64,000 nucleotides of DNA from Gloeobacter violaceus PCC 7421 (GTDB taxonomy: Bacteria; Cyanobacteriota; Cyanobacteriia; Gloeobacterales; Gloeobacteraceae), in NCBI RefSeq assembly GCF_000011385.1, contig NC_005125.1, positions 1,364,001 through 1,428,000 on the forward strand, written 5' to 3'. Numbering within the stretch: the stretch's first letter is position 1; each line of letters begins with the position of its first letter. Shown in pieces: positions 15,030-31,470 of the stretch. Below the pieces are notes generated by a model. The model did not search any database, was not told where the DNA came from, and saw only the letters and a list, made by a program, of their open reading frames with translations. Both the position numbers and the translations under genes were made by a program.

Positions 15030-15872
15030 ATGCTCATGCAAGAACTTTCGGAAGCCGAATATTTCCTCAAGAAATTTCACAGCCTTTACCCTGGTGCGAC
15101 TTCATCATCTTTTGCTCATGGCCAAACTCTGTGTGGAATCTCTTCATATGAGCGGCTACTTAAAGTTATTCCAGAAAGTGAGCAGCCGATCACGGTGTTA
15201 GACCTTGCCTGTGGAGATGGTTTTTTGCTCCAAAGATTGGCCGAGCGTCAACAGGCACGTCTCTGCCTGGTCGGCGTCGATTTGAGCCCGGAGGAATTGG
15301 ACGCTGCCCAAGCACGCTTAGTTTCCGCTGCCGTGGTTCTGTACTGCGCCCGAGCGCAGGCGCTTCCTCTGTCGGATGCGTCGGTGGACTTTGTGCTTTG
15401 CCACTTGGCCTTGATGCTGATGGATGGCGTCCGTGAAGTCGTTGCCTCAGTGCACCGTGTTCTCAAGCCCGGAGGGGTGTTCTCTGCAGTCGTCGTGGGT
15501 GAGTTTCAACGAGGCGACGCCTACGAGGCGTTCGTGCAACTGCTGAAAAATTACCTCTCAGAGGTGAATACCCGCGGACCGCGCCTTGGAGATCCGCTTA
15601 CTTTCTCCGAGCAGGGACTGCGGAGCTTGTTCTCGGCAGGCACGGGATTCGTTGAGCCGATTTGGATAGAGGACTTTGTGATTCGGCTGGATGCCCCCAG
15701 AAACAAAGTCTGGGAAATGCTCTCGCTGATGTACGACGTTGTGCTGCTTTCAGACGAAGCAAAGGTGCGACTAGAAGCTGAATTCATCTCTGCCATGGGG
15801 ATGCTGGAAAGGGCCGACGGCTCAGTGCCCTGCTCGATGGGCCTGCGTCAGATTACCTGCACCAGGCTCTAA
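15030..15872 (+). CDS. Class I SAM-dependent methyltransferase
   Basis: A 280-residue protein (278 from the second ATG at 15036) with the SAM-binding motif VLDLACGDGFLL (about residues 55-66), the acidic end of strand 2 in VGVDLSPEELDAAQ, and the later DASVDFVLCHLALMLMDGV and VLKPGGVF motifs. It belongs to the broad small-molecule methyltransferase group. It sits at the left edge of the RiPP-type island, converging on the RND gene, so a tailoring role is possible but unsupported beyond proximity. Confidence 0.85.
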   Translation: MLMQELSEAEYFLKKFHSLYPGATSSSFAHGQTLCGISSYERLLKVIPESEQPITVLDLACGDGFLLQRLAERQQARLCLVGVDLSPEELDAAQARLVSAAVVLYCARAQALPLSDASVDFVLCHLALMLMDGVREVVASVHRVLKPGGVFSAVVVGEFQRGDAYEAFVQLLKNYLSEVNTRGPRLGDPLTFSEQGLRSLFSAGTGFVEPIWIEDFVIRLDAPRNKVWEMLSLMYDVVLLSDEAKVRLEAEFISAMGMLERADGSVPCSMGLRQITCTRL

Positions 15873-15917: not shown

Positions 15918-18900
15918 CTACTCCTGCTGAGTAGGAAGCGAGCGAGCAATTACCGGAAGATCCGGTTGGTTATCGGCCTGGATAGCTTGACGTCGATCTT
16001 GTTGAGACGTGCGATCCAAGTGAATAGATAGCCACTGCTCGAGATCGTCGATGTAGGTGAAGACCACCGGGACTACCACCAAAGTCAGCAGTGTCGAGGT
16101 GACCAGCCCGCCCACAACTGCGATCGCCATGGGAGAGCGCGTTTCGGCCCCGGCTCCAAGCGAGAGGGCGATGGGCAGCATGCCTGCGATCATCGCGACG
16201 GTGGTCATCAGGATCGGGCGCAGTCGGGTTTCGCCCGCACTCATGATCGCTTCCAATCTTGACCTGCCCCCCTTCATCGCCATCAGGCAGTATTCGACCA
16301 GAAGGATCGCATTTTTGGTCACCAATCCCATCAGCATCACAATGCCAATTAGGGCGTACATCCCCATCGACTTGCCCATTAGCAGCAGTCCTACCAGGGC
16401 ACCGCCCAAGGCCAAGGGTAGCGAGATCATGATGGTGAGCGGTTGCAAAAAGCCGCCAAACAACAGAACCAACACCGCGTAAACCAGCAGTACCGCCACG
16501 GCAATAGCGCCGCCAAAACCGTTGAAGACGTCTTTTTGCACCTCGGCATCGCCCGTGGCTTTCTCCCGGACACCGGCGGGTAAGTTGCGCAGGGCGGGCA
16601 ACTGGTGCACTCGCGCCAGGGCCGGTCCAAGTTCGCTGCCCGGTGCCAGGTTGGCTTCAACGGTGACCTTGCGGGAGCGGTCGTAGCGCTCGATCTGGGA
16701 GATCCCGGTGTTCAGGCGAATGTCGGCGACGGCTTTCAGGGGAACCAGCTGTCCGCTACCGTTGGTGAGCTGCAGATTTTCGATCGCCTGGAGGTCTTGG
16801 CGAAAACGCGGATCGAGCAGAACGCGGATGTTGATTTGCCGACCGGGCAGATTGAACTTTGCCAGGGAAGTGGGGTTGTCCCCGAGTGTGGCGACCAAAG
16901 CGGTGCGGGCAATCGCCTCTACCGACACTCCCTGATCGGCGGCCCGGGCCAGGTTGGGAACCACGCGCAGTTCGGGCCGGGCGAGTTCGGATGCGAGATT
17001 GACGTCGGTCAATCCTGGCACCGAGCGCATCTGATCCACCAGCAGCGAGCCGGAACGCTCAAGGGCAATCGAATCGTCGGATTGAAGGACAATTTGCAGT
17101 TCCTTGCCGCCGGTGAAGCTGCTGCCCGCGAAAGACAAACGCACCCCCGGCACCTGCTCAAGCTTGCTTCTCAATTCGGCTTCGACCTGTTTTTCGTTCA
17201 ACCGTCTCTGCTCTTTGGGTTTGAGGTAGATGAAGAACAGATTCTGGTTTTTCTTGTCGCCAAAAGTGCCCACCCCACTAAAAACCCGATCGACTGCCGG
17301 ATGGGCCTCCATCAGCGCGCTCATCTGCAAAGCGCTCTGCCGGGTCTGCTCGATAGGCGTGCCCGGCGGCATCAGGACATACAGATCGATCTCGCCGTCA
17401 TCGGCGGCATTCACCAGCGAAGTCGGTACCTGGGGCCACAGCCAGAGGCTCAAGGCAAACACCCCGGCAGCCAGCACGACCGTCAAGTTCCGATACTGCA
17501 GAGCCCTGATCAGCAGATAGTCGTAAGCACGCACCAGGAAACTTTTTTGCTCTGTGTGCGGCAACGGCTTCATCCAGTAAGCGGCCATCAACGGTGTGAG
17601 CATCCGTGCCACCAGCAGTGAAAAGAGCACCGCGGCCGCCACCGACCAGCCGAACTGCCGGAAGTACTGTCCTTGTATGCCCTCCATAAAGGCCACCGGC
17701 AAAAATACGGCCACGATCGTCATCGTGGTGGCGACGACCGCCAGACCGATCTCGTCGGCCGCGTCCAGGGCGGCCTGGAAAGGGGATTTGCCCATCGCGG
17801 TGTGGCGGATGATGTTTTCGATTTCGACGATGGCGTCGTCCACCAGAATACCGACCACCAGCGCCAGCGCCAGTAGCGTCATGTTGTTGAGCGTGAAGCC
17901 CGCCAGCTTCATCACTGCAAACGTCGGGATCACCGAGAGCGGTATAGCGAGACCTGCGATAAAAGTCGCCCGCCCATCGCGCAAGAAAAGCCAGATGACT
18001 ACCACCGCCAGCGACGCTCCCAATAGCAACGCCTCGACCGACGCGCTGTAGGATTCGCGCACAAAAGTGGCATTGGTCCAGCTTTTGCGGATCTCGACGC
18101 CGGCGGGTAGGCTACGCGCCAGCTCGCGCATCTTCGCATCGATGGCTTCCTCGACCGCCACCAAATTGCTGCCGCTGGAGCGGATGGCTCCAAGGTAGAC
18201 GACCGGCACCCGGTTCAAAAAAGCAAGATTATCGGGATCGCTCTCGCCGTCGGTAATGCGGCCCAGGGTATCGAGGCGGGCATGACGTCCATCCCCCAGT
18301 GAGATTTGGGTAGTGCGCAGTTGCTCGACAGTACTGGCCGAGCCGAGGGTGCGGATCGCCTGCTCGGTGGTACCCACTTCCCCCCGGCCACCGGGCAGGT
18401 TAGTGTTCAGTGAGCGGATCTGCGCATCGACATCCAGGGCAGTGATCCCCAGCGCCTGCAGCCGGTTTGGATCGAGCTGCACCCGAATTTCTCGTGTGAC
18501 CCCGCCCGAGCGCCAGACCCTGGCCACCCCGGGCACCGCGAGCATGGCGCGAGTCACATCGTTGTCGGCGATCCAGCTCAACTCCTTGACCGAGCGGCTT
18601 GCGGAGAGCACTTCGTACTCGACCAGGGTCTCGGCATCTCGGCTGGCCTCTACCCGACGGATCACCGGTTGGTCGATACTCTGGGGCAATGAGGAGCGAA
18701 TCTTGGCAACGGCATCGCGCACATCGTTGACGGCTCGGTCAAAGTTGGTGCCGAGCAGAAACTCGATCTCGGTCGAGGAGGATCCGTCTTTGATCTGCGA
18801 GGTGATGTGCCTAATGTTGCCGATGCCTGCCACAGCGTCCTCGATCTTGCGCGTCACCTGGGTCTCCAGTTCCGGCGGGGCTGCTCCCAGCTGGGTGACG

Positions 18901-19049
18901 GTGACGGAGACCTTCGGCACCTGCACGTCCGGGTCGATGGCGATCGGAAGCTGGACGAAGGCAGCCACCCCAGCCGCCGTCAACAGCAAAAACAAGGCGA
19001 TGGTGGGCACCGGGTTGCGGATGGACCAGGCAGAAAGATTCCAGGTCAT
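15918..19049 (-). CDS. RND efflux transporter, HAE1/AcrB family
   Basis: The 1043-residue inner-membrane pump has the duplicated RND layout: helix 1 at LFLLLTAAGVAAF, two large periplasmic domains, and transmembrane helices in two blocks. The proton-relay Asp pair is in VVGILVDDAIVEIENI. I choose the ATG at 19049 because GGAG lies six bases upstream and the protein then begins MTWNLSAWSIRNPVP, as HAE pumps do. Longer frames begin at 19085 or 19094. No membrane-fusion or TolC partner is adjacent. A Fur/Zur-like box lies 38 bases upstream. Confidence 0.95.
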   Translation of the reverse strand: MTWNLSAWSIRNPVPTIALFLLLTAAGVAAFVQLPIAIDPDVQVPKVSVTVTQLGAAPPELETQVTRKIEDAVAGIGNIRHITSQIKDGSSSTEIEFLLGTNFDRAVNDVRDAVAKIRSSLPQSIDQPVIRRVEASRDAETLVEYEVLSASRSVKELSWIADNDVTRAMLAVPGVARVWRSGGVTREIRVQLDPNRLQALGITALDVDAQIRSLNTNLPGGRGEVGTTEQAIRTLGSASTVEQLRTTQISLGDGRHARLDTLGRITDGESDPDNLAFLNRVPVVYLGAIRSSGSNLVAVEEAIDAKMRELARSLPAGVEIRKSWTNATFVRESYSASVEALLLGASLAVVVIWLFLRDGRATFIAGLAIPLSVIPTFAVMKLAGFTLNNMTLLALALVVGILVDDAIVEIENIIRHTAMGKSPFQAALDAADEIGLAVVATTMTIVAVFLPVAFMEGIQGQYFRQFGWSVAAAVLFSLLVARMLTPLMAAYWMKPLPHTEQKSFLVRAYDYLLIRALQYRNLTVVLAAGVFALSLWLWPQVPTSLVNAADDGEIDLYVLMPPGTPIEQTRQSALQMSALMEAHPAVDRVFSGVGTFGDKKNQNLFFIYLKPKEQRRLNEKQVEAELRSKLEQVPGVRLSFAGSSFTGGKELQIVLQSDDSIALERSGSLLVDQMRSVPGLTDVNLASELARPELRVVPNLARAADQGVSVEAIARTALVATLGDNPTSLAKFNLPGRQINIRVLLDPRFRQDLQAIENLQLTNGSGQLVPLKAVADIRLNTGISQIERYDRSRKVTVEANLAPGSELGPALARVHQLPALRNLPAGVREKATGDAEVQKDVFNGFGGAIAVAVLLVYAVLVLLFGGFLQPLTIMISLPLALGGALVGLLLMGKSMGMYALIGIVMLMGLVTKNAILLVEYCLMAMKGGRSRLEAIMSAGETRLRPILMTTVAMIAGMLPIALSLGAGAETRSPMAIAVVGGLVTSTLLTLVVVPVVFTYIDDLEQWLSIHLDRTSQQDRRQAIQADNQPDLPVIARSLPTQQE

Positions 19050-19086
19050 TTCAGCTCCTGGGCCACCGACCCGTGTTTCGGTCATA

Positions 19087-19105
19087 GAGAACAATAATCA
19101 TTATC
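19087..19105 (-). promoter_or_regulatory. Fur/Zur-like metalloregulator box upstream of the RND gene
   Basis: GAGAACAATAATCATTATC matches the classical 19-bp Fur consensus GATAATGATAATCATTATC at 16 of 19 positions, with the right 12 bases perfect. On the other strand TGATAATGATTATTG fits a 7-1-7 Zur-type box TGATAATNATTATCA except for its last two bases. It lies in the 88-base gap between tfuA and the RND start, where it could block transcription of the pump under metal-replete conditions. Which regulator binds cannot be told from sequence. Confidence 0.6.
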
Positions 19106-19137: not shown

Positions 19138-19812
19138 TCAATCGCGCTTTTGCCAGGGTCTTTCCTGGAGGAACTTCCACAAATCCCAGGACTTGATTCG
19201 GAATGGCTCGAAGTTTGCCAGCCACGTGTCGACGATGCCCGTCTCCATCTGCGGCCGGCACTCTAGGACAAGCTGCCGCAACAGTGCCAGAGTCCGGTAA
19301 CCGAACCAGAGACGCGACAAGTGCTCCACGACAGCCGCCGCCTCGCGGCGGGAGAGTCCGCCCCGGGTCACCAGGTCGTCGAGCGCGAAGCGCATGTGAA
19401 TGAGCGGCTCAGTGATCGATGGGTAAGGGTGTGCCGGCCCGTGCAGGAGGGCGACCTCGTCGTCGGTAAAATCTTCGTCCTGCACGAAGCGCTCGTACAC
19501 CGTGCCGTAACCGCGCATTCCCAGATCGCGCATTTCACAGGCGCGGATAGCGCCCATTGAGCAGAGCCCCCAAACCCGCCATCCCTTTTTGAGGGCTGTG
19601 CGCAGCTCGATGTGCCCGACAGAGGGGAACTGGTGGAAGATGCCATCGACGATCACCAGATGGCCCGGAGGAGACTGGGAGGTCAAGGCTTCGACGTCGC
19701 CGCGGCGCACGGGCGGTAGACAGGTCACATCCAATCGCAGGTGTTTGAGCGGTTCGATGCCCTGCAGCGTCGGGCCGACGAAGAACGTGCAGTTATTCAT
19801 GAAATCGGGCAT
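19138..19812 (-). CDS. tfuA: TfuA-like protein, YcaO partner
   Basis: This 224-residue protein carries the TfuA core at about residues 52-125: IVDGIFHQFPSVGHIEL, then WGLCSMGAIRACEMRDLGM and GYGTVYERFVQDEDFTDDEV. TfuA proteins work with YcaO enzymes and are needed for thioamide installation, for example thioglycine in methyl-CoM reductase; they also occur in the trifolitoxin locus. The gene overlaps the end of the YcaO gene by 20 bases. The ATG at 19812 has GAGGG three bases upstream, so coupled translation is likely; an internal ATG at 19800 lacks a site. Confidence 0.9.
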   Translation of the reverse strand: MPDFMNNCTFFVGPTLQGIEPLKHLRLDVTCLPPVRRGDVEALTSQSPPGHLVIVDGIFHQFPSVGHIELRTALKKGWRVWGLCSMGAIRACEMRDLGMRGYGTVYERFVQDEDFTDDEVALLHGPAHPYPSITEPLIHMRFALDDLVTRGGLSRREAAAVVEHLSRLWFGYRTLALLRQLVLECRPQMETGIVDTWLANFEPFRIKSWDLWKFLQERPWQKRD

Positions 19813-21028
19813 GGTCCCTCAGCCTCGGTCCAATCCGTCTGGTGCTTCGGTCAAACATCTCCAGGCGAGGCACGATCAGCTTGAGTACCTGAACCGGATC
19901 GTGCGGCTGGGTGAAGACGACCCGGCAGACATGCGCGATCCCCACTTTCCGGATGGCGGCGACGAGCACCTCCCAGGCCGAGGACAGATCGCAAACTTCA
20001 CCTGATCGATCGCCAATCGCTTCAAAGCCAATCATTCCTTCGGGGCGTGAGACTTTAGCGGCCAGTTTTCGGCTGAAGGCCAACTCCTGCTCGCCGTTCA
20101 TCTGGGCAAGCAGCCGGTGGCGCTCGATTAGATCGTCCCGCCCGCCATGGATGAACGACAGGCGCCCCTGGACCGCTTCGCAGATAGCGCGCACCGCGGC
20201 GATCTCCTTGAAAGGGTGGCATCCAAAGCCGCCGCAAATGTAGACGGCATCGACCGGGTCCGGCTCCATGACGTAAGCGGCGAAGTACGGCAACTCGAAG
20301 ATGTTCTCGACGTAACGCAGCCGGAGGGTGAAACCGGCCTCGCCGATCTGCCGGGCCAGGGCGGCCGGCTGCGGCGGCAACGAGGCGATGTCCACCAGTA
20401 CCGAGGTGTCGTGCAGGAAACAAAATGACTGGATGTCCCGTTCGATCACCTCGGCCAGTCCGTGCACGCTTGCCTCCCAGACGGAGTTGCCGGAACACAG
20501 GCCATTCGAACTCGACCCGAAATGCCTCTGCACCCCCTCTACCGCCGGGGCAGGCACGTAGACGAGTTCTGCCGGCACCAGGCATCGCGTCGAACTGAGC
20601 AATTCCTCCGCTTCCACGCACGGCATCGGGTCATCGAGAGTAATCTGGGCACCGAAGACAGGACAAAAATCAAGAATAGCTTCTGGCCGACTCCTGCCGT
20701 CGAGGACGTCGCGCGGTGTGGCCATCACGTAATCGACGGCCGAACGCCCATACTCGGCCATGGCAAACTCAATGGCTTCCATGTATGCCCCGACGCGCGC
20801 CTCCTCAGGACGGAGCCCTTTGCCTGCATTGACGCACAGAGAACCAGGCAGCGCCGTGGGTCGGATACTAGCAAAAACAGGAATGCCGATGCAGTCTAAC
20901 CGGGTGGTGTCCGTCACGCGGATAATACCCAAGCGGCTTGCAAAAGCCCGCGCTCGCTGAAGAGTTTCCGCGAGCGCAACCACGCGCAAACTCGAACTCA
21001 TTCTATACAAATCTGTAGTCTCAGTCAT
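19793..21028 (-). CDS. YcaO-domain protein, RiPP backbone-modifying enzyme
   Basis: YcaO enzymes use ATP to activate peptide backbone amides. The 411-residue protein has all three ATP/Mg-binding regions: GKGLRPEEARVGAYMEAIE (residues 69-87), SSNGLCSGNSVWEASVHGL followed by AEVIERD (173-198), and GGFGCHPFKEIAAVRAICEA followed by VQGR (266-289). It lacks a Pro-rich C-terminus and no Ocin-ThiF or E1-like partner gene is present, so a TfuA-dependent thioamidation-type role fits better than azoline formation. It lies between the repeat peptide gene and tfuA on the same strand. Confidence 0.93.
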   Translation of the reverse strand: MTETTDLYRMSSSLRVVALAETLQRARAFASRLGIIRVTDTTRLDCIGIPVFASIRPTALPGSLCVNAGKGLRPEEARVGAYMEAIEFAMAEYGRSAVDYVMATPRDVLDGRSRPEAILDFCPVFGAQITLDDPMPCVEAEELLSSTRCLVPAELVYVPAPAVEGVQRHFGSSSNGLCSGNSVWEASVHGLAEVIERDIQSFCFLHDTSVLVDIASLPPQPAALARQIGEAGFTLRLRYVENIFELPYFAAYVMEPDPVDAVYICGGFGCHPFKEIAAVRAICEAVQGRLSFIHGGRDDLIERHRLLAQMNGEQELAFSRKLAAKVSRPEGMIGFEAIGDRSGEVCDLSSAWEVLVAAIRKVGIAHVCRVVFTQPHDPVQVLKLIVPRLEMFDRSTRRIGPRLRDHARFHE

Positions 21029-21106
21029 TTTTCAACTTGAAGTTATTTTCAACAAATTGCCGGCAAAGAGCACTGCGCAAAATGCCGGCTACTGACCCGC
21101 AGTGGA

Positions 21107-21165
21107 GTGAATAGCCATCGCGCCACATCGCGAACGAGCTTGAGCGCAATGGCTATACTGCTCAC
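21107..21165 (-). terminator. Hairpin between the precursor peptide and YcaO genes
   Basis: TAGCCAT (21112-21118) pairs with ATGGCTA (21149-21155). The stem can be extended inside by GCGC/GCGC after one mismatch, and outside by GTGA/TCAC. There is no strong U-run, so it is more likely an attenuator or mRNA-stabilising stem that sets a high peptide-to-enzyme ratio than a full terminator. Confidence 0.4.
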
Positions 21166-21203
21166 TTCAAAGTCGAGTTAAATTCGTGACGTACCAGCTC
21201 TGC

Positions 21204-21500
21204 TTAGTTGCGAGAGGCTTCAAGGAAACCACCGCCACCGTGGTGTGCGGAACTAACCTCTGTAAACCCACCACCGCTGTGGTGTGCGGCACTCGCTTCG
21301 CTGAAGCCACCACCGCTGTGATGTGCGGAGCCAGCCTCTGCAAACCCGCCGCCACTGTGGTGTGCAGAACTTGTGCCGAGCGAGCGAAGGCCAAGCAGCT
21401 CTTCAAAAAAGACACCGGATTTCCCATCGAGCTGCAGGGAAATCGTTTGGAATGCGGCAGTACCCGGCTTCACACTATTCGGATCGTAACAGTTAAGCAT
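21204..21500 (-). CDS. Candidate multi-core RiPP precursor peptide
   Basis: The 98-residue peptide has an N-terminal leader (about residues 1-44; MLNCYDPNSVKPG, SGVFFEELLGLRSLG). Four 13-residue repeats follow: SAHHSGGGFAEAG (45-57), SAHHSGGGFSEAS (58-70), AAHHSGGGFTEVS (71-83) and SAHHGGGGFLEAS (84-96), then RN. The invariant positions are AHH-x-GGGF-x-E. There is no Cys in the cores and only one in the leader (Cys4). The ATG at 21500 has GGAG twelve bases upstream; a TTG at 21518 in frame would add six residues. It is the first gene before ycaO-tfuA on the same strand. Leader and cleavage boundaries are inferred. Confidence 0.85.
   Translation of the reverse strand: MLNCYDPNSVKPGTAAFQTISLQLDGKSGVFFEELLGLRSLGTSSAHHSGGGFAEAGSAHHSGGGFSEASAAHHSGGGFTEVSSAHHGGGGFLEASRN
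21213..21368 (-). repeat. Four 39-bp tandem repeats encoding the core peptides
   Basis: Four in-frame 39-bp units with no length variation encode the HHxGGGF cores. The units differ at several silent and conservative positions, so the array is not a very recent expansion and appears to be under selection for the peptide sequence. Confidence 0.95.
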
Positions 21501-21773
21501 TGGCGTTTTCTTCTCCAATTATGTGTTGTAGCAGACGTCACCATTTGGATCGGCCTGGCGCAAGACTAACCAGGTGATTTGGTGCTGTCAAGCTGATAAA
21601 ACCGACGCTTACACAGAAGGAGTTCGGTTAGATATACCCCCCAGGGGGATGTCGCAAAAGCTCACATTTCGCTAAAAGTGTTGGAGCTACAATAGACTTT
21701 CTATGCTTAAGAGAAGCATTTATAGATTGGGTTTGACGCTGACGCTCCAGATGCCGACGGGGAGAGACGCTCG
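21501..21773. other. Divergent intergenic region between precursor and ABC genes
   Basis: These 273 bases must hold the promoters of the leftward precursor-ycaO-tfuA set and the rightward ABC pair. Visible items are a C5/G5 hairpin around 21645-21653, a small hairpin ATGCTT/AAGCAT at 21703-21719, a TACAAT hexamer near 21688 (plus strand) and CATAAT close before the precursor ribosome site (minus strand). No convincing -35 element and no second Fur-like box is visible. Confidence 0.5.
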
Positions 21774-23507
21774 ATGATGTTGCAACGCCGTCTGCTGGCT
21801 CTGACCCGGGGAGCGCGCGTTCGGCTTGCGGCGACGGCGGCGCTGGGACTGGCAGCCACAGGAACGTATATCGTCCAGGGTTTACTGACTGCGCGAGCGG
21901 TGGACCAGATCTTGCGAACGGGCTCCTGGTCTTCGATTCTGGACAGTCTTGGTGGGATTGCAGCCTGTATCGTCCTGCGGATCGCTCTTGTGTGGCTGCG
22001 CGAGGTGAGTGCGGTGGAGGTGGCGTCGGCTGTGAAACAGATGCTGCGCACGCGGCTTTTCAACCGGCTGCTGTTGCTGGGGCCGGGCTATCTCGAAACC
22101 AAGCGTACCGGGGCGGTACAGGCAACGGTGGTAGACAGTGTGGAAGCCCTGGAAGGCTATATGGGCTACTACCTTCCGCAGGTGTGTATCGCCCTGTGTG
22201 CCCCGGCGCTGATTGTAAGCGGACTGTTCGCCCTGGATCCGGTGGTGGGTGCGCTGACGCTCGGCTGCGTACTCGTCGCTCCTTTCGGTCCCACACTCTA
22301 CGACTGGTTGCTGGGGGACTATGGCCGCCGCCACTGGCAGGCCTATAGCCGTCTGGGTGCTCAGTTCCTCGACAGCATGCAGGGGATGACGACCCTGAAG
22401 GCATTCAATGCGAGCGGACGCCGGGGGTTGACTTTGCAGCGCGAGGCGACGGACTTGTACCGGGCGACCATGGCACAGATGTCTTTGTCGCTGGTCGGTT
22501 CGGGTATCGCGGGCTTGGCCCTCAGTGCCGGTACGGCGCTCGCGGTCGGAGTGGGGGCGCTGCATCTGGCTGAGGGCAGCTTGAACATTCCGGGTTTGCT
22601 GACCATTTTGTTTCTCTCAGCCGAATGCTTTCGTCCCCTGGCCGATCTCAATATGTATTGGCACCTGGGTTACAGAGGGATTTCCGCTTCCCCCGCCATC
22701 TTTGAGTTGTTGGAAGCACAGCCGATGGTGAGCGAACCGGCAGACTCGGCGTCAGTCGGCTCAGAGTCCGGCAGTCTGGCCGTTGCCTTCGAGAACGTCA
22801 CTTTTGCCTACACCGATGGGGAGCGTCCAGCCCTGGGTGGGCTCTCGTTTGAGGTGGGACCCGGTGAGACCGTCGCCCTGGTCGGGCGATCGGGAGCGGG
22901 CAAATCCACGGTGGTCTCGTTGCTGTTCCGCTTTTTCGACCCGCAGAGCGGACGGATTACACTCGCCGGCCGAGAGATAAGGGAGTATTCACTCGAAAGC
23001 TTGCGCAGCTTGATCGCGGTGGTACCGCAGGAGACGTACCTTTTTCACGGCACGGTGGCTGAGAACCTGCGGTTTGGTAGACGCGATGCGACACCCGCCC
23101 AACTGGAAGCGGCGGCGAGGACGGCAAACGCCCACGACTTTATTGCCGAAATGCCCGAGGGCTATCAGACCATCGTGGGTGAACGGGGATTGAAGCTTTC
23201 CGGCGGGCAGCGCCAGCGCATCGCGATTGCCCGAGCACTGTTGAAAGATGCCCCCCTACTGATCCTGGATGAAGCAACGTCCAGCGTGGATGCGGCCAAC
23301 GAGGCGCAAATCCAGCAAGCGCTCGAACGCCTGCGCTCCGGCCGCACCACACTGGTGATTGCCCACCGGCTCTCGACGGTGGTGAATGCCGATCACATTG
23401 TGGTACTCGAACAAGGACAGGCCGTTCAAGCAGGACGCCATCGAGACTTGCTCTTGCAGCCGGGGGCTTACGCGCGATTGGTAACGGCACAGCAAGGAAC
23501 TTTATGA
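21774..23507 (+). CDS. ABC transporter, fused membrane and ATPase domains (subunit 1)
   Basis: The 577-residue protein has six transmembrane helices (about residues 15-310) and a C-terminal ATPase: Walker A GRSGAGKST, Q-loop VPQETYLFHG, signature LSGGQRQR, Walker B LLILDEATSSVD and switch AHRLST. It resembles CydD-like exporter-fold half transporters. Its stop overlaps the start of the next gene (ATGA), so the two are translated together, probably as a heterodimer. Exporter-fold heterodimers include siderophore importers (IrtAB, YbtPQ) as well as peptide exporters; direction is not decided by sequence. No peptidase C39 domain is present. Confidence 0.92.
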   Translation: MMLQRRLLALTRGARVRLAATAALGLAATGTYIVQGLLTARAVDQILRTGSWSSILDSLGGIAACIVLRIALVWLREVSAVEVASAVKQMLRTRLFNRLLLLGPGYLETKRTGAVQATVVDSVEALEGYMGYYLPQVCIALCAPALIVSGLFALDPVVGALTLGCVLVAPFGPTLYDWLLGDYGRRHWQAYSRLGAQFLDSMQGMTTLKAFNASGRRGLTLQREATDLYRATMAQMSLSLVGSGIAGLALSAGTALAVGVGALHLAEGSLNIPGLLTILFLSAECFRPLADLNMYWHLGYRGISASPAIFELLEAQPMVSEPADSASVGSESGSLAVAFENVTFAYTDGERPALGGLSFEVGPGETVALVGRSGAGKSTVVSLLFRFFDPQSGRITLAGREIREYSLESLRSLIAVVPQETYLFHGTVAENLRFGRRDATPAQLEAAARTANAHDFIAEMPEGYQTIVGERGLKLSGGQRQRIAIARALLKDAPLLILDEATSSVDAANEAQIQQALERLRSGRTTLVIAHRLSTVVNADHIVVLEQGQAVQAGRHRDLLLQPGAYARLVTAQQGTL

Positions 23508-25291
23508 CACTTGAACAGGTACCGGCTCCGGAAGGAATCCCATGGGACAGCCAAACCATCCCGCCCCACCCGTCCGGGTTCTGGAAGCTCCTGGCGATGT
23601 TGAAGAGCCACTTTTGGCTCATGGGGCTGACCATCGCTTCTGGGATTACCAACCAGGCCATGGCGATTGCCGCCACTTGCCTCGGGGCTTATCTGGTCGG
23701 TACAGCGGTAACCGGCAGCAACGTCGAGGCGCTCGTACCCCTGCTGTGGCTTCTGGGCGGTACCGTGCTGCTGCGAGCACTGATGGCCTGGCTTGAGATG
23801 TGGCTTGCCCACGATCTGGCCTACCGCATCCTGGCCGATGTGCGCGGTGCACTGTATCGGGCACTCGAACGGCTGGCGCCGAGTTATCTGCTCGATCGCC
23901 GCAGCGGGGATCTCGCTTCCTCCGTGATGTCCGACGTCGAGATGCTGGAGTGGTTCTACGCCCACACGGTGGGAACTTTTGTCGTGGCCGTGGTCGTGCC
24001 GGCCGGCGCACTGATTGCCCTGGCGACGCTGCATGGACTGCTGGTGCTCTCGTTGTTGCCGGCCCTCGTCCTGGTGGTGAGTATTCCTCTGTGGTTTGGC
24101 CGACGTGCCTCCGGCGAAGGCAAGGCGTTGCGTCGGCAGTTGGGCGAAGTCAACGCGGAGGTCGTGGATGCGGTGCAGGGATTGCGAGAGATCGTCGCTT
24201 TCGGCCAGGGCGGGTATTTCGGCGAAAGGCTTGCCCGTCGCGACCGGGAGCTGCGCAAAAGCCAGATGGCCCACGGCAGCCGGGCTGGTCTTGAGGGTGC
24301 TCTCACCAATGGGGCGGTTTCCCTGGGTATGCTGTGCGTGCTCGCGGCGGCCGCCTACCTGGTGGCACGTGGGTCGCTCGGCTTCGCTTTTTTCCCGTTG
24401 AGTATTGTGCTTGCCGCTTACACCTTTGAGCCCGTCGTGGCGCTCACCCGAATCACTCAGAACCTCGGCGTGATTTTCGCAGCGGCAGAGCGGGTCTTCG
24501 CGGTGCTCGATGCGCCGGCTTTGGTCGAGGACAAAGTGGCAGCGCCCCCTACCGGACAGATAGTGCCCCACGTGCGATTCCATCAAGTCAGCTTCCGCTA
24601 CGGTCCGGCGCTCCCCAATGCCCTGGAGAATGTCTCGTTCGAGGTGGCACTGGGAGAAACGGTTGCTTTGGTCGGGCACTCCGGTGCGGGTAAATCCACC
24701 TGCATTCACCTGCTGCTGCGCTTTTGGGATACCACGGCCGGATCGGTCACGATCGGGGGCCATGATTTGCGCAATTTTCCGCAAGCCACGCTACGGGAGC
24801 TGATTGCACTGGTGCCGCAAGATATTTATTTATTCAATATGAGCATCCGGGACAACATTCGCCTGGGTCGGCCCGCCGCTTGCGATGAAGAAGTCAAAGC
24901 AGCCGCCCGCCTGGCCTTGGCAGACGAATTCGTCTGCTGCTTGCCCCAGGGCTATGACACGAATGCCGGTGAGCGTGGCCTGCAATTATCAGGTGGGCAG
25001 CGCCAGCGCATTGCCATCGCGCGAGCGTTGCTCAAAAATTCACCCATCCTCGTGATGGACGAGGCGGTTTCCAACCTGGACACCGAGAATGAACTGGCAC
25101 TCCAGACGGCCATGGACCGTCTGCGCTCCGGACGGACCACGCTGGTGATTGCCCATCGGCTTTCGACCATTCGCAGCGCCGATCGGATTGTCGTCCTCCA
25201 AGCCGGACAGGTAGTCGAGACAGGAACCCACGCGGAACTGATGCGGCGTGGGGGGCGCTACGCCGAACTGCTTGCCGCGCAGCACAACTGA
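23504..25291 (+). CDS. ABC transporter, fused membrane and ATPase domains (subunit 2)
   Basis: The 595-residue partner of the preceding gene has a membrane domain in residues 25-320 and then an ATPase with Walker A GHSGAGKST, Q-loop VPQDIYLFNM, signature LSGGQRQR, Walker B ILVMDEAVSNLD and switch AHRLST. Both subunits keep catalytic Glu and signature residues, so both ATP sites look competent. It begins four bases inside the previous stop codon. The context (peptide precursor to the left, TonB receptor to the right) fits transport of the modified peptide or of its metal complex. Confidence 0.92.
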   Translation: MTLEQVPAPEGIPWDSQTIPPHPSGFWKLLAMLKSHFWLMGLTIASGITNQAMAIAATCLGAYLVGTAVTGSNVEALVPLLWLLGGTVLLRALMAWLEMWLAHDLAYRILADVRGALYRALERLAPSYLLDRRSGDLASSVMSDVEMLEWFYAHTVGTFVVAVVVPAGALIALATLHGLLVLSLLPALVLVVSIPLWFGRRASGEGKALRRQLGEVNAEVVDAVQGLREIVAFGQGGYFGERLARRDRELRKSQMAHGSRAGLEGALTNGAVSLGMLCVLAAAAYLVARGSLGFAFFPLSIVLAAYTFEPVVALTRITQNLGVIFAAAERVFAVLDAPALVEDKVAAPPTGQIVPHVRFHQVSFRYGPALPNALENVSFEVALGETVALVGHSGAGKSTCIHLLLRFWDTTAGSVTIGGHDLRNFPQATLRELIALVPQDIYLFNMSIRDNIRLGRPAACDEEVKAAARLALADEFVCCLPQGYDTNAGERGLQLSGGQRQRIAIARALLKNSPILVMDEAVSNLDTENELALQTAMDRLRSGRTTLVIAHRLSTIRSADRIVVLQAGQVVETGTHAELMRRGGRYAELLAAQHN

Positions 25292-25300
25292 AGCGCGCCT

Positions 25301-26743
25301 CTAGCCGGTGATTGGATAGCGGCGCAAGGCTGAGAGGCCGACTAGACCAATGAGCAAAGCAGGAGCAATCAACCCCAGCAGACTGCCAAGGACGCGCTCG
25401 GTGAGCGGGCCGGGAGCTTCTTCAGAGAACCTAAAGTGCGGCAGCTCTTGCAGGTCATTCGCGCTGAAACGCTGCTTATTCATCGTGTCGGCGCGAAAGA
25501 ATTTCTGCCAGTCGCGGTGGTACGCCTCTACCTGTCCCAGGAAGTGGCGGTAGCGGGCCACACCGGTACCGGCCAGGTCGTTGAGCGCTTCTTGGGTGAC
25601 CACGGCCGGCGAGAGGTAGCGATAGCGGTCCACCCATTCCTGCTGGCGCAAGAGCTGTGCGTCGAAGCGTTCGAGCACCGGCCGGACGCGCCGGTCAACT
25701 TCCGCCTGGACGAGCGTGTAGCGGACGCCGTAATCGGTGTAGTTAAAACCACCCTTACCCTCGGCGGCCAATTCCGGATGGTCCGCCTGGTACTTGCTCA
25801 GGAACTGGTCGCTTTGGTCGCTGGCGGCGCTGGACGCTTCGCGCAGGGACTGGATCATCTCAAGCCGCGAGGGCATCGGATCGACAGCGCTGATCGTGAT
25901 GTTGACCAGGGCCGGGATCAGCACCACAAAGGCCAGCCACAGGCCCATCAGGGCGACGGCATTGGTCGCAGAACTGCCGCCCAGGGCGTTTACCGCCACC
26001 GCGGCTGCAAACCAGAAAGCTCCGTAGGCTCCAACGACCAACAGCCACAACCCCAAGCGCAGGGCGGTGTCCGGTGCCCCCAGTTCAGCACCGCTGAGAA
26101 CGACCCCGGCCAGGGAAAAAGCGACGGCCAGCGCCAGGACGATCAAAGCCCGAAACGCGATTTTGCCGAGTACGAAAGTCCCGAGGGCCACCGGCTGCGA
26201 CAGCAACATCGAGAGCGTGCCCTCGTCGCGTTCCTGGGAGATGAGGTTGTAGCTCAAAGCCAGGATCAACAGCGGGTAGAGGTAAACGATCACGAAGGCC
26301 AGATCGAAGTGCCCCGCCAGCAAGTTGGTCGGGTTCTCGATCTCGTTGTTGTTGATGAAAGCCTGCTTGCTGGCGGTGGTCACTTTGAAATAGTACGGGT
26401 AGAGGTCGCTTTGACCGACCGAAAGGGAGGCCAGGGGACCGGGCGGCATCACCGCGTAACGCCCCGCAAGCGAGTAGCCAACCCACCAGGCACTGGCCTG
26501 CGGGGCCTCTTTCAACTCGGCCGTCGGTCCGCGCTCAAGGGACACCAACTGCTTACCCAGCAAGGCCAACCGTGTTGCCTCGTCCTGTCTGGCGGTTTGG
26601 ATAGCCTCCTGCTGAAACTGCACCCAGGCGGCCCCGTTGTAGACCCCGTAGCCAATCAGGAGCGCAAATAGACCGACAATTGGCCAAAGGGTGCTTTGGG
26701 CAACCAGGTTGCGCCACTCGTGCTTGATAATTGGCCCTAACAT
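25301..26743 (-). CDS. ABC-2 type permease with DUF3526-like extracytoplasmic domain (1)
   Basis: The 480-residue protein starts MLGPIIKHEWRNLVA, has a first membrane helix, a long extracytoplasmic region of about 140 residues, a five-helix ABC-2 block (LYPLLILALSYNLISQERDE, GTLSMLLSQPVALGTFVLGK), a second loop region and a final helix. This matches the DUF3526 group often encoded in pairs next to TonB receptors. An upstream ATG at 26785 is in frame, but GGAAG precedes the chosen one. Its 3' end meets the ABC pair tail to tail. No separate ATPase gene is adjacent. Confidence 0.82.
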   Translation of the reverse strand: MLGPIIKHEWRNLVAQSTLWPIVGLFALLIGYGVYNGAAWVQFQQEAIQTARQDEATRLALLGKQLVSLERGPTAELKEAPQASAWWVGYSLAGRYAVMPPGPLASLSVGQSDLYPYYFKVTTASKQAFINNNEIENPTNLLAGHFDLAFVIVYLYPLLILALSYNLISQERDEGTLSMLLSQPVALGTFVLGKIAFRALIVLALAVAFSLAGVVLSGAELGAPDTALRLGLWLLVVGAYGAFWFAAAVAVNALGGSSATNAVALMGLWLAFVVLIPALVNITISAVDPMPSRLEMIQSLREASSAASDQSDQFLSKYQADHPELAAEGKGGFNYTDYGVRYTLVQAEVDRRVRPVLERFDAQLLRQQEWVDRYRYLSPAVVTQEALNDLAGTGVARYRHFLGQVEAYHRDWQKFFRADTMNKQRFSANDLQELPHFRFSEEAPGPLTERVLGSLLGLIAPALLIGLVGLSALRRYPITG

Positions 26744-26788
26744 CTGCGCTTCCTGTTCAAGTTGGCTCGACTCGACACAAAACATTCC

Positions 26789-28207
26789 TCAATCGACGCG
26801 CAGCCTGATCGTGGCCTGGAAAGCAGCGATCACACCGACAACCAACCAGCCCAGGGCAAAGACGATGCTCCAGGAGTAATTGGCCAGTACCCAGCCGACC
26901 GATGGCATCCGGTAAGTAAAAGCCGGCACCTTTGCCCACGTCTCGGCGCCGACCGTATCCTCCCAATTGCCCGCTTCCGTGTGGAGCATCTCCTCGTTCA
27001 TCGTCTTGATCAAACCGCGGCGGTAGCCCTCGGCCGCACTGGCAAAGTCGCGATGCTGGGCAAAATCCGTGCCGGACAGGCCCATCGAAAGCGTCCGCAC
27101 GGCCAGCAAGGGTGCGAAGAGTGCCCCCCACTGATAAACGTTGTTCTGGCGCTCGAAAGTTTGCCAGAGGGAGCCGTAGTGCTTGTCAAAAACTTTGTTG
27201 CCGTAGTTCTCGCCCTCCTGCAAGGCGATGGCATCGAAGTTGATCGGCAGATCTTCGACCCGCTTGACTCCATACTGCTTGAGGGTCTGGGCCTTCAAAA
27301 CGGCCAGGCGGGCGTCGGCGGCGTTGTGGCCGTTGACGCCGTTGTCGATGTCCTGCTTGACGGCCTGACCGAAAGCGAGTGCGGAGGGGCCGGGGTAAAC
27401 GCGTCTTGCCAGATCGGCAACGGCGCGCGGCGCCACCAGGCCGTTGCCGATCCAGAAAGCAAGCAGCACCACGAGGGCCAATTGGGAGGAGCGTACCGCG
27501 GCCGATACAGCGAGCGACAGGCCGACGAATATGCCGAAGTAGACAAGATAACTGGCACCCATCAGCAACATGCGCGCCGCGCTTGTGATCATCGCGTCCG
27601 GCCCGGCAGAGAGGGCGAGGGCGATCACGCCGAGAATCGTCGCCGGGACCAGCAGCAGCGAAAGGGCAAAGCTGATGCCCAGGGCTTTGCCGAGGGCCAG
27701 ATCCCGCCTGGGTACCCCCAGACTCAACACCTGCCTGAGCGTGCCCCTCTCGCGTTCGTCCGCGAAAGCACCAAACGTCAACAGCACGATGAGCAGGGGC
27801 AGCAACTGCTGCAGCACCGTAGCGGCGGTCAGCTCGCTGAAGCGCTGCACGGCGGTGGCGTCCTGGGCTGGGCGATAGCGAAAGTCGTTTTGCTTGTGCG
27901 CCTCCAGCCATACCGCCACACCGACGTACTTCTCCACTCCCACGTCCACCGACGCGAGCGGCAGTTGGGGCCGAAAGGCATAAACGCCGTAGTGCGCCGC
28001 CGAATGCGGATTTTTGCGGCCCTGGGCGAGCCACTGCGCGCGGGTGACCCGTTCCGCCGCCGCCCGCTCTGTGGCGCTATCGCTGTAGTGCTTCCAACCG
28101 GCGGCCAGTGACGCCAGAAGCAGGCACCCGACGATGAGCGCCGCAAGCCGGAAGCGGCCGTCGCGCACGATCTCTGTGGTCTCTTTGCGTGCGATCCGGA
28201 TAATCAT
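26789..28207 (-). CDS. ABC-2 type permease with DUF3526-like extracytoplasmic domain (2)
   Basis: A 472-residue paralogue of the following gene: MIIRIARKETTEIVRDGRFR, then a membrane helix, a long extracytoplasmic loop, the ABC-2 helices with FGAFADERERGTLRQVLSLG, and a last helix near the C-terminus. It is four or forty-five bases upstream of permease 1, depending on that start, so the two form one transcription unit. It is divergent from the TonB receptor, with a shared 210-base intergenic region. The partner ATPase is not in the cluster. Confidence 0.82.
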   Translation of the reverse strand: MIIRIARKETTEIVRDGRFRLAALIVGCLLLASLAAGWKHYSDSATERAAAERVTRAQWLAQGRKNPHSAAHYGVYAFRPQLPLASVDVGVEKYVGVAVWLEAHKQNDFRYRPAQDATAVQRFSELTAATVLQQLLPLLIVLLTFGAFADERERGTLRQVLSLGVPRRDLALGKALGISFALSLLLVPATILGVIALALSAGPDAMITSAARMLLMGASYLVYFGIFVGLSLAVSAAVRSSQLALVVLLAFWIGNGLVAPRAVADLARRVYPGPSALAFGQAVKQDIDNGVNGHNAADARLAVLKAQTLKQYGVKRVEDLPINFDAIALQEGENYGNKVFDKHYGSLWQTFERQNNVYQWGALFAPLLAVRTLSMGLSGTDFAQHRDFASAAEGYRRGLIKTMNEEMLHTEAGNWEDTVGAETWAKVPAFTYRMPSVGWVLANYSWSIVFALGWLVVGVIAAFQATIRLRVD

Positions 28208-28417
28208 GATGCCCTTGTTGCAATAGTATTTTTTCTCGCCTCAGTCCCGCCTATGCTCCGAACACGCTGGGCTGCCTGGATTTCGGCAAAATTTGGCACT
28301 GTCGGCCCACATAGCCTAATCGCCGCGGTCGCGGCAGTCCATCCTGGCCAGGGGGATACAGGGATTCGGTCACTTCCGATACTGTGAAGATTGCCGGTGG
28401 AAGGGAGTGAACGCGTC

Positions 28418-31117
28418 ATGAACACTAAGTGCGGACCCAGGCCGTGTCTATGGCTGATGGTGCCAATCGCTCTCGGTTTCAGCTTGTCGGACACGGCGGT
28501 AACCGCACAACCGACGGTGCGGACGGCAATCGCCCCACAGAGTACCAGTGCCCAGATCGGTGGCGAGGGGGCAAAGGCTTTGCTGCGGTCAGCAGCCGGC
28601 ACCGCCGCCGACCTGGAACACCGCCCGGCCCTATGGGATTGGACCCGGCCGCTCAGCGCACCCGCCAAAGTCAGCCAGGCGGGGGGAGCGGCGTCGACTG
28701 CACCTGCCGCTGTGTCTCAAGGAGCTGCCGCCCCGGGGGAGAGCGCCGATATCCTCGATGAAGTCTCGGTCACCGCCACCCGCCGCCCCACCCGGCAACG
28801 CGACACGACGGCGACGACCTATACGGTCAAAAGAGCAGACTTCCAGGTTCAAGGGGCCAGAACGGTCACAGACGCGCTGGTGCTGATTCCCGGCTTCGAG
28901 GGGCCGCCCTCTTTGGGTGGGGTGCGCAACTCGGGGTTCAATTTCTTGCGGGGCTTCGACGACCAGCGGTTTCTGGTGCTCAGGGACGGAGTGTCGCTGC
29001 AGCGCTCCGGCAACAACCGCTCCGACATCACACGCTTCAACGTCGATGAGCTGGAAAGCATCGAGGTGGTGACCGGCGGTGCAACGCTGCGCTACGGTTC
29101 TGGAGCCGTGGGCGGTGTGATCAACTTAATTACCGAGACACCCAGGGGACTGCCGAAGTTGACTCTCGCCTACGAAGCGGGCAGCTACGGCTTTAGCCGC
29201 TACCTGGCCAAGTACGGCGGCGGCGACGACACGCTCAGCTACAACTTGATCTTCGCGAGCCTGGTCGCCTTCAACAACTATCCTTACAGTTTCACCCTGC
29301 CCAACCAGGCGCGCTTCTACGGTCCCACGGTCAATCCAAATGCGGCGGCCTCGGGCCTCGCCTTCGATGCGGACGGCAACCCGATTAGCTCCTTCGGCCA
29401 GCCCAATCCCGACCCTGAGAACAGCGGCGACATCGACCTGTACGGCTACCTCAAGCCGGAGGTCGGCCCGCCCATCACCGTCAAAGGTGTTGCAGACAAT
29501 GCTTTTAACGCCAACGACAGCTACGCGGGCAAGCTCGTCTTCAAGCCCGATCCCGCCAACAAACTGACCCTGAGCCTCCACCAGCAAAATTCAAAGTTCA
29601 GCAACGACGGCCCCGGCGCTTACGGTTTTATTCCGTGTTTTGGCGGCGCTCTGCCTCCAGGGGTCGACAACGGGACTTTGAGTTTCTCCCGCTTCTTGCC
29701 CCTCAATCCAGACGGCAGCGAATCGGCCTGCACCGTGACGCCCTACATCGTCAACACCGCGAGCGTGAATTTGGGCATCAACTCGCTGCTGGGCAACTAC
29801 GCCGCTCCCTACACCACCTCGCTCGATGGAAGGGTGAACTTCCCGGCCGGGAGCGCCTACCCGAACGCAGAACCGGCCACCGGTACCCAAGTCAGCTACC
29901 GGGTCGACAACCAGACACAGACCGAGGCCGCTTTGTTCTGGGACTACACGCTCACGCCCACCGCCTCCATCAACAGCTACATTTCCTACTACCGATTGAC
30001 ATCCACCGCCTTCATCGCGCCGCTCTTCTTTAATACCAACTTCTTCGGAGCGGGCGAGTCGCCCTTTGCCGTCTTCCAACCGTCGCAGCCCTACAACGAG
30101 GGCAACAAGCTCGAAATCCAGAGCGCACTGAACACCCAACTCTCCGCCGGACAGACCCTCTCCTTCGGGATTAACTTCGTGCAGGACCGCAGCTATGCCC
30201 AGGTCGGGGGGGGCACCAGGTTCGTCGACAGCGCCATCTCGCGCACGTCCGCCTTTTTAATCGACGACATCAGCTTTAGCGACCAACTCAAGGCAAACCT
30301 CGGTTTTCGCTATACCTACAGCACCCAGTTCGGCAGCGTCGGCACTCCCGCAGTCGGCATCCGCTACACCCCGACGAACTTCCTCTCGCTGCGGGCCAAC
30401 GGCTCCTACGTGTTCAACGCGCCAAGCATCGCCGACCTCACCGTTACGGGAGGCTTTCTCCTGGCGAATCCCGGGCTGCGCCCCGAATCGGGCGTCACCT
30501 ACGATGTCGGCGTCGATATTACCCCGGCGCAAAACCTGGGTGTGCAGGTCACCTACTTCAACACCTATCTGGACGGATTCATCGGTTTTGCAGCGCTCAT
30601 TCAAGATGGCAACCTGCGCTTTCAACGGCAGAATCAGAACACCCGGATTGCCTCGGGCATTGAGGTGGCAGCCAACTGGCAGCTCACCGACCAGCTGCGG
30701 CTGAGAGTCGCCTACACGAACACCGACGCACGCAATGTGGGTGCAGTCGACAGCGTGGAACAGTCCACTTACCCGTATTTCTTCCAGTTTCAAGACCAGA
30801 GCATCCCTTTCAACAAAATTGCCGCTGCCCTTTCCTACGCAAATCAGAGGCTGAATGCCTCGCTGCTTTTTCGCTACGACGACGGCAAGCGGCGCGGGGT
30901 GACCGGCCTGGGAGGCTCGACCGATTTCACCCCATCCTTTGCAACCCTGGACCTCAATGTCGAAGTTCCCATTGCACAGAACTTTACTTTGACCGGTAGT
31001 GTCTTCAACTTGACCGATACGCAGTACGAGTACCTCAGCGGCATCCCGGCTCCGGGCACCACCTTTCGTATAGGCGGCAGGATTGAATTTGGAGGGGGTG
31101 CTCAGGGGAGCAATTAA
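28418..31117 (+). CDS. TonB-dependent outer-membrane receptor
   Basis: The 899-residue receptor imports ligands across the outer membrane using TonB energy. It has a signal peptide to about residue 30, an unusually long Ala-rich linker to about residue 118, the TonB box DEVSVTATRR, a plug domain (YTVKRADFQVQGARTVTDAL, then LRYGSGAVGGVINLITETPRG) and a 22-strand-type barrel with large loops. The end RIGGRIEFGGGAQGSN lacks the usual terminal aromatic. The ATG at 28418 is preceded by GGGAG; an upstream TTG is in frame. It resembles siderophore receptors; the ligand is inferred from context only. Confidence 0.93.
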   Translation: MNTKCGPRPCLWLMVPIALGFSLSDTAVTAQPTVRTAIAPQSTSAQIGGEGAKALLRSAAGTAADLEHRPALWDWTRPLSAPAKVSQAGGAASTAPAAVSQGAAAPGESADILDEVSVTATRRPTRQRDTTATTYTVKRADFQVQGARTVTDALVLIPGFEGPPSLGGVRNSGFNFLRGFDDQRFLVLRDGVSLQRSGNNRSDITRFNVDELESIEVVTGGATLRYGSGAVGGVINLITETPRGLPKLTLAYEAGSYGFSRYLAKYGGGDDTLSYNLIFASLVAFNNYPYSFTLPNQARFYGPTVNPNAAASGLAFDADGNPISSFGQPNPDPENSGDIDLYGYLKPEVGPPITVKGVADNAFNANDSYAGKLVFKPDPANKLTLSLHQQNSKFSNDGPGAYGFIPCFGGALPPGVDNGTLSFSRFLPLNPDGSESACTVTPYIVNTASVNLGINSLLGNYAAPYTTSLDGRVNFPAGSAYPNAEPATGTQVSYRVDNQTQTEAALFWDYTLTPTASINSYISYYRLTSTAFIAPLFFNTNFFGAGESPFAVFQPSQPYNEGNKLEIQSALNTQLSAGQTLSFGINFVQDRSYAQVGGGTRFVDSAISRTSAFLIDDISFSDQLKANLGFRYTYSTQFGSVGTPAVGIRYTPTNFLSLRANGSYVFNAPSIADLTVTGGFLLANPGLRPESGVTYDVGVDITPAQNLGVQVTYFNTYLDGFIGFAALIQDGNLRFQRQNQNTRIASGIEVAANWQLTDQLRLRVAYTNTDARNVGAVDSVEQSTYPYFFQFQDQSIPFNKIAAALSYANQRLNASLLFRYDDGKRRGVTGLGGSTDFTPSFATLDLNVEVPIAQNFTLTGSVFNLTDTQYEYLSGIPAPGTTFRIGGRIEFGGGAQGSN

Positions 31118-31132
31118 CTGCGGGTCTGTTTT

Positions 31133-31312
31133 GGCACCGTCATCGGCGCAGGGTGTTGGAGCCTTGTGGCCCTCACCAACAGGGGTTGCTGGCCGCTGGT
31201 ACTTTTGGCTATCGGCTGGCAACTAGTCTACGAGCCAGGGCACTGGAGCACGCGCTACGGCGCCAAGCCGATTCGCATCTTCTCGGTCACGGCGCCCTGG
31301 CCCAGCGGGTGA
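31133..31312 (+). pseudogene. Remnant of the membrane glycosyltransferase (copy B, mosaic)
   Basis: Bases 31133-31222 match 13965-14054 of copy A at 87 of 90 positions. At the shared 9-mer GGCTGGCAA (31214-31222) the match jumps 723 bases ahead to the C-terminal part of copy A, where identity falls to about 73%. The reading frame stays open across the junction (GTVIGAGCWSLVALTNRGCW, AIGWQLVYEPGHWSTRYGAK) to a TGA at 31310. There is no start codon, and the frame begins directly after the TonB receptor stop. The rest of the 353-base gap to 31470 shows nothing else except TGAGG before the next gene. Confidence 0.85.
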
Positions 31313-31470
31313 TCACCATCCGCTGAACACCCAAGCAAAAATTGGACGGCATTTGAGCAGCATCCGGTCTGGAAAGTGGCAGCTTCTGTCGAGGAGCATG
31401 CAGACAACTACCTGGGTAAAGTCTCGGCAAATCCAAACTACTGAGACCGTGCCCTTCCCCTGAGGTCAAC

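Follow-up and report, generated by a model that had tools for sequence, protein, structure and literature searches.

Among described systems, the thiovarsolins of Streptomyces varsoviensis are one of the closest to the locus analyzed here. The var cluster (PMC6511847) and the cassette in Gloeobacter violaceus PCC 7421 both combine a YcaO-TfuA pair with a precursor that carries imperfect core repeats in tandem, and a dedicated protease is absent from both. Yet the thiovarsolins are actinobacterial peptides with an APR core that is thioamidated at the Pro-Arg bond (PMC6511847), and their cluster includes heme-oxygenase-like, ATP-grasp, and amidinotransferase genes. The Gloeobacter cassette instead encodes an AHH-x-GGGF-x-E core, together with ABC, RND, and TonB genes and a candidate CsoR-type operator; neither the APR/GPR core nor the var accessory genes occur in it. 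Another parallel is the methanogen system that modifies McrA (PMC5589413), which supplies, for each of the two enzymes, the nearest NCBIfam model and solved structure (PDB 6pe3 and 6xp8). There, however, the substrate is a large enzyme and not a peptide. Clusters in Vibrio ostreicida, Paraburkholderia megapolitana, and Pantoea ananatis differ in having single-core precursors of 50 to 54 aa, a ThiF of their own, and MFS in place of ABC exporters.

TfuA clusters in Gloeobacteria were counted in a 2021 survey (PMC8120280). They probably correspond to the locus described here or to its sister, and the main text of that survey gives no description of this precursor, of its repeats, or of its regulation. 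We analyzed a 64,000-nucleotide stretch of the G. violaceus genome (the window), whose relevant features are given in Table 1. With a probability of roughly 0.55, the whole is best explained as a multi-core RiPP cassette whose product would be thioamidated, would bind a soft metal, and would be regulated by a member of the CsoR family.

Table 1. Features of the cassette, in window coordinates
Feature	Position	Strand	Basis
SAM methyltransferase, cassette edge	15030..15872	+	PF08241
RND efflux permease	15918..19094	-	PF00873, E 4e-242; best PDB sequence match MdtB
TfuA, 224 aa	19138..19812	-	PF07812, E 1.6e-36; NF033432
YcaO, 411 aa, ATP-dependent backbone-activating enzyme	19793..21028	-	PF02624, E 6.5e-60
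Precursor-ycaO intergenic region, hairpin of 14-16 bp	21060..21203	-	kept in sister species
Precursor peptide gene, 98 aa	21204..21500	-	ORF; GGAGAAG ahead of ATG; sister-species ortholog 88% identical
Four 13-aa core units, [SG][SA]AHH[SG]GGGFxE[AV]	21216..21371	-	units at 21333-21371, 21294-21332, 21255-21293, 21216-21254
Candidate CsoR-type operator, ATATACCCCCCAGGGGGATGT	21632..21652		match to ATATACCCCTNAGGGGTATAT; identical in sister species
ABC exporter half-transporter 1 (CydD-like), divergent from precursor	21774..23507	+	PF00664, PF00005
ABC exporter half-transporter 2	23504..25291	+	profile search, which reported no C39 peptidase domain
Two ABC-2 permeases with DUF3526	25301..28207	-	PF12040, PF12679
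TonB-dependent outer-membrane receptor	28391..31117	+	PF00593, PF07715

The precursor gene and its repeats

The open reading frame that holds the repeats was listed on the minus strand at 21204-21518, with a TTG start at 21518. The ATG at 21500 is probably the true start, since GGAGAAG stands just before it. In the precursor, a leader of some 43 aa (MLNCYDPNSVKPGTAAFQTISLQLDGKSGVFFEELLGLRSLGT) precedes the four tandem core units (SSAHHSGGGFAEA, GSAHHSGGGFSEA, SAAHHSGGGFTEV, and SSAHHGGGGFLEA), and SRN forms the tail. At the nucleotide level, the array has a period of 39 nt, with 3.7 copies and 72% matches (TRF), and the gene is present in a single copy in the genome. The original prediction had taken the repeats to be real and their cores to be free of Cys, and both statements hold: none of the four units contains Cys, and the sole Cys of the precursor sits in the leader. 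It had also named HH, GGGF, and E as invariant, to which the Ala preceding HH can be added, and had observed that the Ser after HH is replaced by Gly in the fourth repeat. This replacement is found in unit 4 only (residue 94 in the numbering of the TTG-started frame), the other units having Ser.

When the units were aligned in the precursor reading frame, codon positions 1, 2, and 3 varied in 4, 2, and 11 of 13 columns, respectively, and among the eight invariant residues, six were encoded by different synonymous codons in different units. Relative to the ortholog in the sister species (G003), the repeat region contains 5 amino acid and 6 synonymous codon differences. All five amino acid differences miss the invariant A, H, H, G, G, G, F, and E, an outcome with a chance probability of (20/52)^5 = 0.008. 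Judged by this codon evidence, the precursor is a real gene in which selection keeps AHH-x-GGGF-x-E, and its 98-aa product is very likely a genuine RiPP precursor. The codon-position test also led us to set aside open reading frames in the alternative frames of the repeat region. When viral contigs, phage records, and plasmids were searched for the precursor or the enzymes, nothing close to the precursor was recovered.

The YcaO-TfuA pair and its relatives

The ycaO and tfuA genes are adjacent and overlap by 20 bases, the start of TfuA lying on the end of YcaO. YcaO scored 185.6 bits against TIGR03266, the model for McrA-glycine thioamidation, versus 86.3 bits against the SagD azoline model, and TfuA scored 125.2 bits against the thioglycine TfuA model; both proteins lie above the Pfam cut-offs and below the equivalog cut-offs, a further difference from the methanogen system. 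Their solved relatives are PDB 6pe3 (MJ1094) for YcaO (E = 4.8e-25) and PDB 6xp8, a TfuA domain protein, for TfuA (E = 3.5e-18). In the alignment to 6pe3, the ATP-binding motifs of YcaO are intact, with the MEAIE, EVIERD, and RAxxEAxQxR regions retained. Azoline-forming YcaOs typically carry a C-terminal PxPxP, and this motif is not present at the C-terminus of the Gloeobacter enzyme (RRIGPRLRDHARFHE).

Both enzymes fall in a clade with the Vibrio ostreicida, Paraburkholderia, and Pantoea pairs (support of 100/99 for YcaO and 100/100 for TfuA), outside of which the other cyanobacterial YcaO-TfuA pairs are placed. The trees comprise 13 and 14 sequences, and the contrast with azoline YcaOs is drawn by model score. 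V. ostreicida, P. megapolitana, and P. ananatis, which hold the nearest kin of both enzymes, have proteins of 37 to 45% identity, encoded in operons with the order precursor, YcaO, TfuA, unknown protein, ThiS-like protein, ThiF, MFS, and cupin. For V. ostreicida, ThiF and a rhodanese were confirmed and the ThiS-like open reading frame has no Pfam match; in Paraburkholderia, ThiS is annotated. A scan of genome contigs with YcaO found only one kin. The sulfide source of bacterial TfuA systems has been described as a thiocarboxylated ThiS homolog (PMC13063428). The Gloeobacter cassette has neither a ThiS nor a ThiF of its own, and four ThiS-family genes are found elsewhere in the genome.

We rejected the kin precursors as a guide to the modification site. 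A His plus a small residue can be aligned, but when the window precursor is scored with a profile built from the three kin precursors, it reaches -0.9 bits, which 35% of shuffles also attain, and because the precursors are not detectably homologous, no site is transferable. A plasmid of P. megapolitana also carries, near the first cluster, a second YcaO-TfuA pair by an MFS gene (L023:16112-19146). Likewise, TfuA is found at another locus of V. ostreicida (L061:5866-12697), together with ThiF, a ThiS-like protein, a candidate precursor of 48 aa, and a distant YcaO.

The accessory cassette and its divergent promoter

The RND permease gene shares the strand of TfuA, lies 43 bases downstream of it, and is possibly co-transcribed with it. 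ABC half-transporter 1 scores 425.3 bits with the CydD model, below the cut-off of 435. No ATPase gene stands beside the DUF3526 permeases in the cassette, whereas their paralogs at a second locus (L106; see below) have one. Among solved sequences, the TonB receptor comes closest to vitamin B12 receptors, in the plug region only. Solved relatives were rejected as a route to its ligand: the likeness to B12, heme, and siderophore receptors is confined to the plug, and no ligand is assigned. The hairpin between precursor and ycaO, which is weak by its z of about -1.6 in each species, may raise expression of the precursor over that of the enzymes; an Rfam search over the region gave no match. The methyltransferase gene has a GC content of 0.547, below that of its neighbors, and might modify the peptide or have arrived separately.

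In one congener (G001), a glycosyltransferase-like gene that extends to 14898 in the window is joined directly to sequence matching 31334-31437; its contig stops soon past the join, and the far side is covered over about 100 bases only. On this comparison, the roughly 16 kb from the methyltransferase through the TonB receptor, absent at the congener site, is an accessory cassette. A second glycosyltransferase-like fragment lies on its far flank (31132-31288), with 95% and 76% identity to 13964-14060 and 14769-14843, and is possibly a trace of the cassette arriving between two copies. Directly downstream of the cassette is a gene for a very glycine-rich protein of 540 aa (31471-33093). TfuA occurs in 10 of the 390 genomes of the class that were surveyed, with the window type found only in G. 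violaceus and the sister species, and the precursor and YcaO-TfuA are present or absent together, as one cassette.

The candidate operator sits between the precursor and ABC half-transporter 1, 132 bases from the ATG of the former and 122 from that of the latter. It has the layout of a 21-nt type 2 G-tract pseudopalindrome and agrees at 17/20 with the CsoR consensus, which comes from Streptomyces (PMC3902906). Such sites are expected 0.04 times per 4.66-Mb genome and 0.0006 times per window, and 12 Mb of simulated sequence contained none of at least 16/20. The search was prompted by a palindrome that had been seen first: the idea is post hoc, the consensus is not. The TAC/GTA dyad of the site is incomplete, with TAC kept and GGA in place of GTA, and CsoR of S. 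lividans needs this dyad (PMC3902906). Because the GTA arm is absent, a different CsoR-family protein may act as the sensor. That family also includes sensors of nickel, formaldehyde, and persulfide. The csoR//copA sites of the same genome reach only 12/20 against the consensus.

An exact 17-mer, TATACCCCCCNGGGGGA, which was defined with both sites already known, occurs at two places in G. violaceus and at two matching places in the sister species, with zero matches in the reversed-sequence control of both genomes. The second G. violaceus place (L106:7372-7392, genome position about 3307871) is located between a TonB receptor gene and an ATPase-DUF3526-DUF3526 operon, the permeases of which are 54 to 64% identical to those of the cassette. 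This near-identical operator hints that Gloeobacter has a small regulon of metal type. In another congener (G002), from which the cassette is absent, related sites occur ahead of a TonB receptor gene. A broad CsoR pattern with 3 mismatches was discarded, its 15 genome-wide matches versus 9 in the control being not significant; the only discriminating patterns are the 21-nt consensus and the exact 17-mer. The TonB//DUF3526 promoter of the cassette itself (28340-28365) contains CATCCTGGCCAGGGGGATACAG, where the sister species has ATCCGGCCCCGGGGGATATA; the element may represent a degraded version of the same operator.

Three PF02583 (CsoR-family) repressors are encoded in the genome. Two of them have Cys...His-x3-Cys, which we take to be the pattern of copper-type CsoR, and the third has Cys...His-x3-His. 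The third repressor adjoins genes resembling copZ and copA, which are accompanied by two G-tract sites (L075:3362-6296), and this csoR-family/copZ-like/copA-like divergon is a candidate copper control. Control of the cassette promoter by a CsoR-family repressor is fairly probable.

Predicted chemistry and function

Backbone thioamidation of the core is likely, and much likelier than azoline formation, because YcaO and TfuA are intact and share a clade with proteobacterial pairs whose operons hold ThiF and ThiS-like proteins. The original prediction had proposed thioglycine. Its preference for a thioamide over an azoline stands, but its choice of glycine does not carry over as firmly, since known TfuA-YcaO pairs differ in the residue that they thioamidate: Gly in McrA (PMC5589413), Pro in the thiovarsolins (PMC6511847), and Asn in the std peptide (PMC13174530). 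One of the three Gly is still the likeliest single site, at somewhat less than even odds; we favor it because Gly is small and the commonest invariant residue. His and Ala would share most of the remaining probability. Across the eight units of the two species, the GGG glycines are kept in 24/24 cases, and A, H, H, F, and E are equally invariant, so that conservation does not discriminate for Gly.

An azoline RiPP, in which YcaO would cyclodehydrate the Ser after HH (or the unit-start Ser) to an oxazoline, is very improbable. What speaks for it is the retention of serine: Ser follows HH in seven of the eight units, and in the sister species it does so in all four, where the first residue of every unit is Ser too, giving two invariant Ser per unit. 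The earlier argument from this Ser applies to G. violaceus, through the Gly of unit 4, but is weak in the sister species. Because the sister species keeps Ser, the case against an azoline is mainly enzymatic: TfuA takes the place of a cyclodehydratase partner, neither such a partner (E1-like or ocin-ThiF) nor an azoline dehydrogenase is found in the cassette, and YcaO ends without PxPxP. A second line is that Ser/Thr positions drift between units and species while AHH-x-GGGF-x-E stays constant. Alternatively, the repeats could form an unmodified, His-rich, metal-binding protein, with YcaO-TfuA acting on another protein. The methanogen pair, whose substrate is McrA and not a RiPP, offers a precedent, and 175 bases and a hairpin separate the precursor from ycaO. 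Nevertheless, the genes are immediate neighbors on the same strand, the precursor has a leader-plus-repeats layout, and its presence or absence goes with that of the enzymes in one cassette, all of which makes this alternative improbable.

A thioamidated, thiovarsolin-like multi-core RiPP with a signaling or antibiotic role, and with no metal, is unlikely. Here, His-His would be just one element of a motif for recognition or receptor binding, with the TonB and RND genes serving uptake and immunity for a bacteriocin-like peptide. TfuA-YcaO precursors with repeated cores are known (PMC6511847), genes for export or immunity commonly encode ABC exporters and RND pumps, and peptide uptake is frequent among TonB receptors. 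Against this stand the CsoR-type operator in the promoter and its twin at the TonB//ABC-2 locus. The operator makes a link to copper or another metal more likely, and the His-His pairs are compatible with predicted metal binding, a function for the peptide to which we would give even odds. The narrower proposal, that the product is a repeat-core metallopeptide free of Cys that uses TfuA-YcaO thioamides together with His-His to bind copper or another soft metal and is made under CsoR-type control, is a tentative possibility.

If the multi-core RiPP cassette that we favor operates as envisaged, the leader would present four equivalent cores to YcaO-TfuA. YcaO would use ATP to activate a backbone carbonyl in each AHH-x-GGGF unit, and TfuA would deliver sulfide, converting the amide to a thioamide (O to S). 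The sulfur would come from housekeeping ThiS-like carriers, which we propose because the cassette has none. Units would then be released by cutting, probably by host peptidases, and exported through the divergent ABC pair, the RND pump, or both. The imidazole and sulfur of the His-His/thioamide units could bind a soft metal, with copper the most likely. A shared metal-responsive promoter would drive the precursor and YcaO-TfuA (perhaps with the RND pump) on one side and the ABC pair on the other, with a CsoR-family repressor conveying the metal response, and the TonB receptor and DUF3526 permeases could be involved in re-uptake or related traffic. CsoR-type repressors usually lift under metal excess. 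For this reason, export or buffering would fit better than uptake, and the TonB receptor is awkward.

Our search of the literature found no characterized cyanobacterial TfuA-YcaO RiPP, and among the TfuA-YcaO RiPP classes named in PMC13174530, a metal role is stated there for none. With four equivalent sites in a compact substrate, the site rule of TfuA-YcaO thioamidation should be directly readable from this precursor, and the operator offers a simple entry to testing the metal hypothesis. Should the metallopeptide reading be true, the cassette would represent a chemically new kind of metal-binding RiPP, from a basal cyanobacterium. Among its closest known counterparts would be the methanobactins and bufferins, copper-binding RiPPs made by MNIO enzymes, which likewise are modified peptides that offer soft sulfur donors to copper and, in the case of methanobactin, also use a TonB receptor. 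The Gloeobacter cassette differs from these in its chemistry, with no MNIO enzyme by profile search and no Cys in its cores, and if it does bind copper, it would provide a route to a copper peptide that needs neither.
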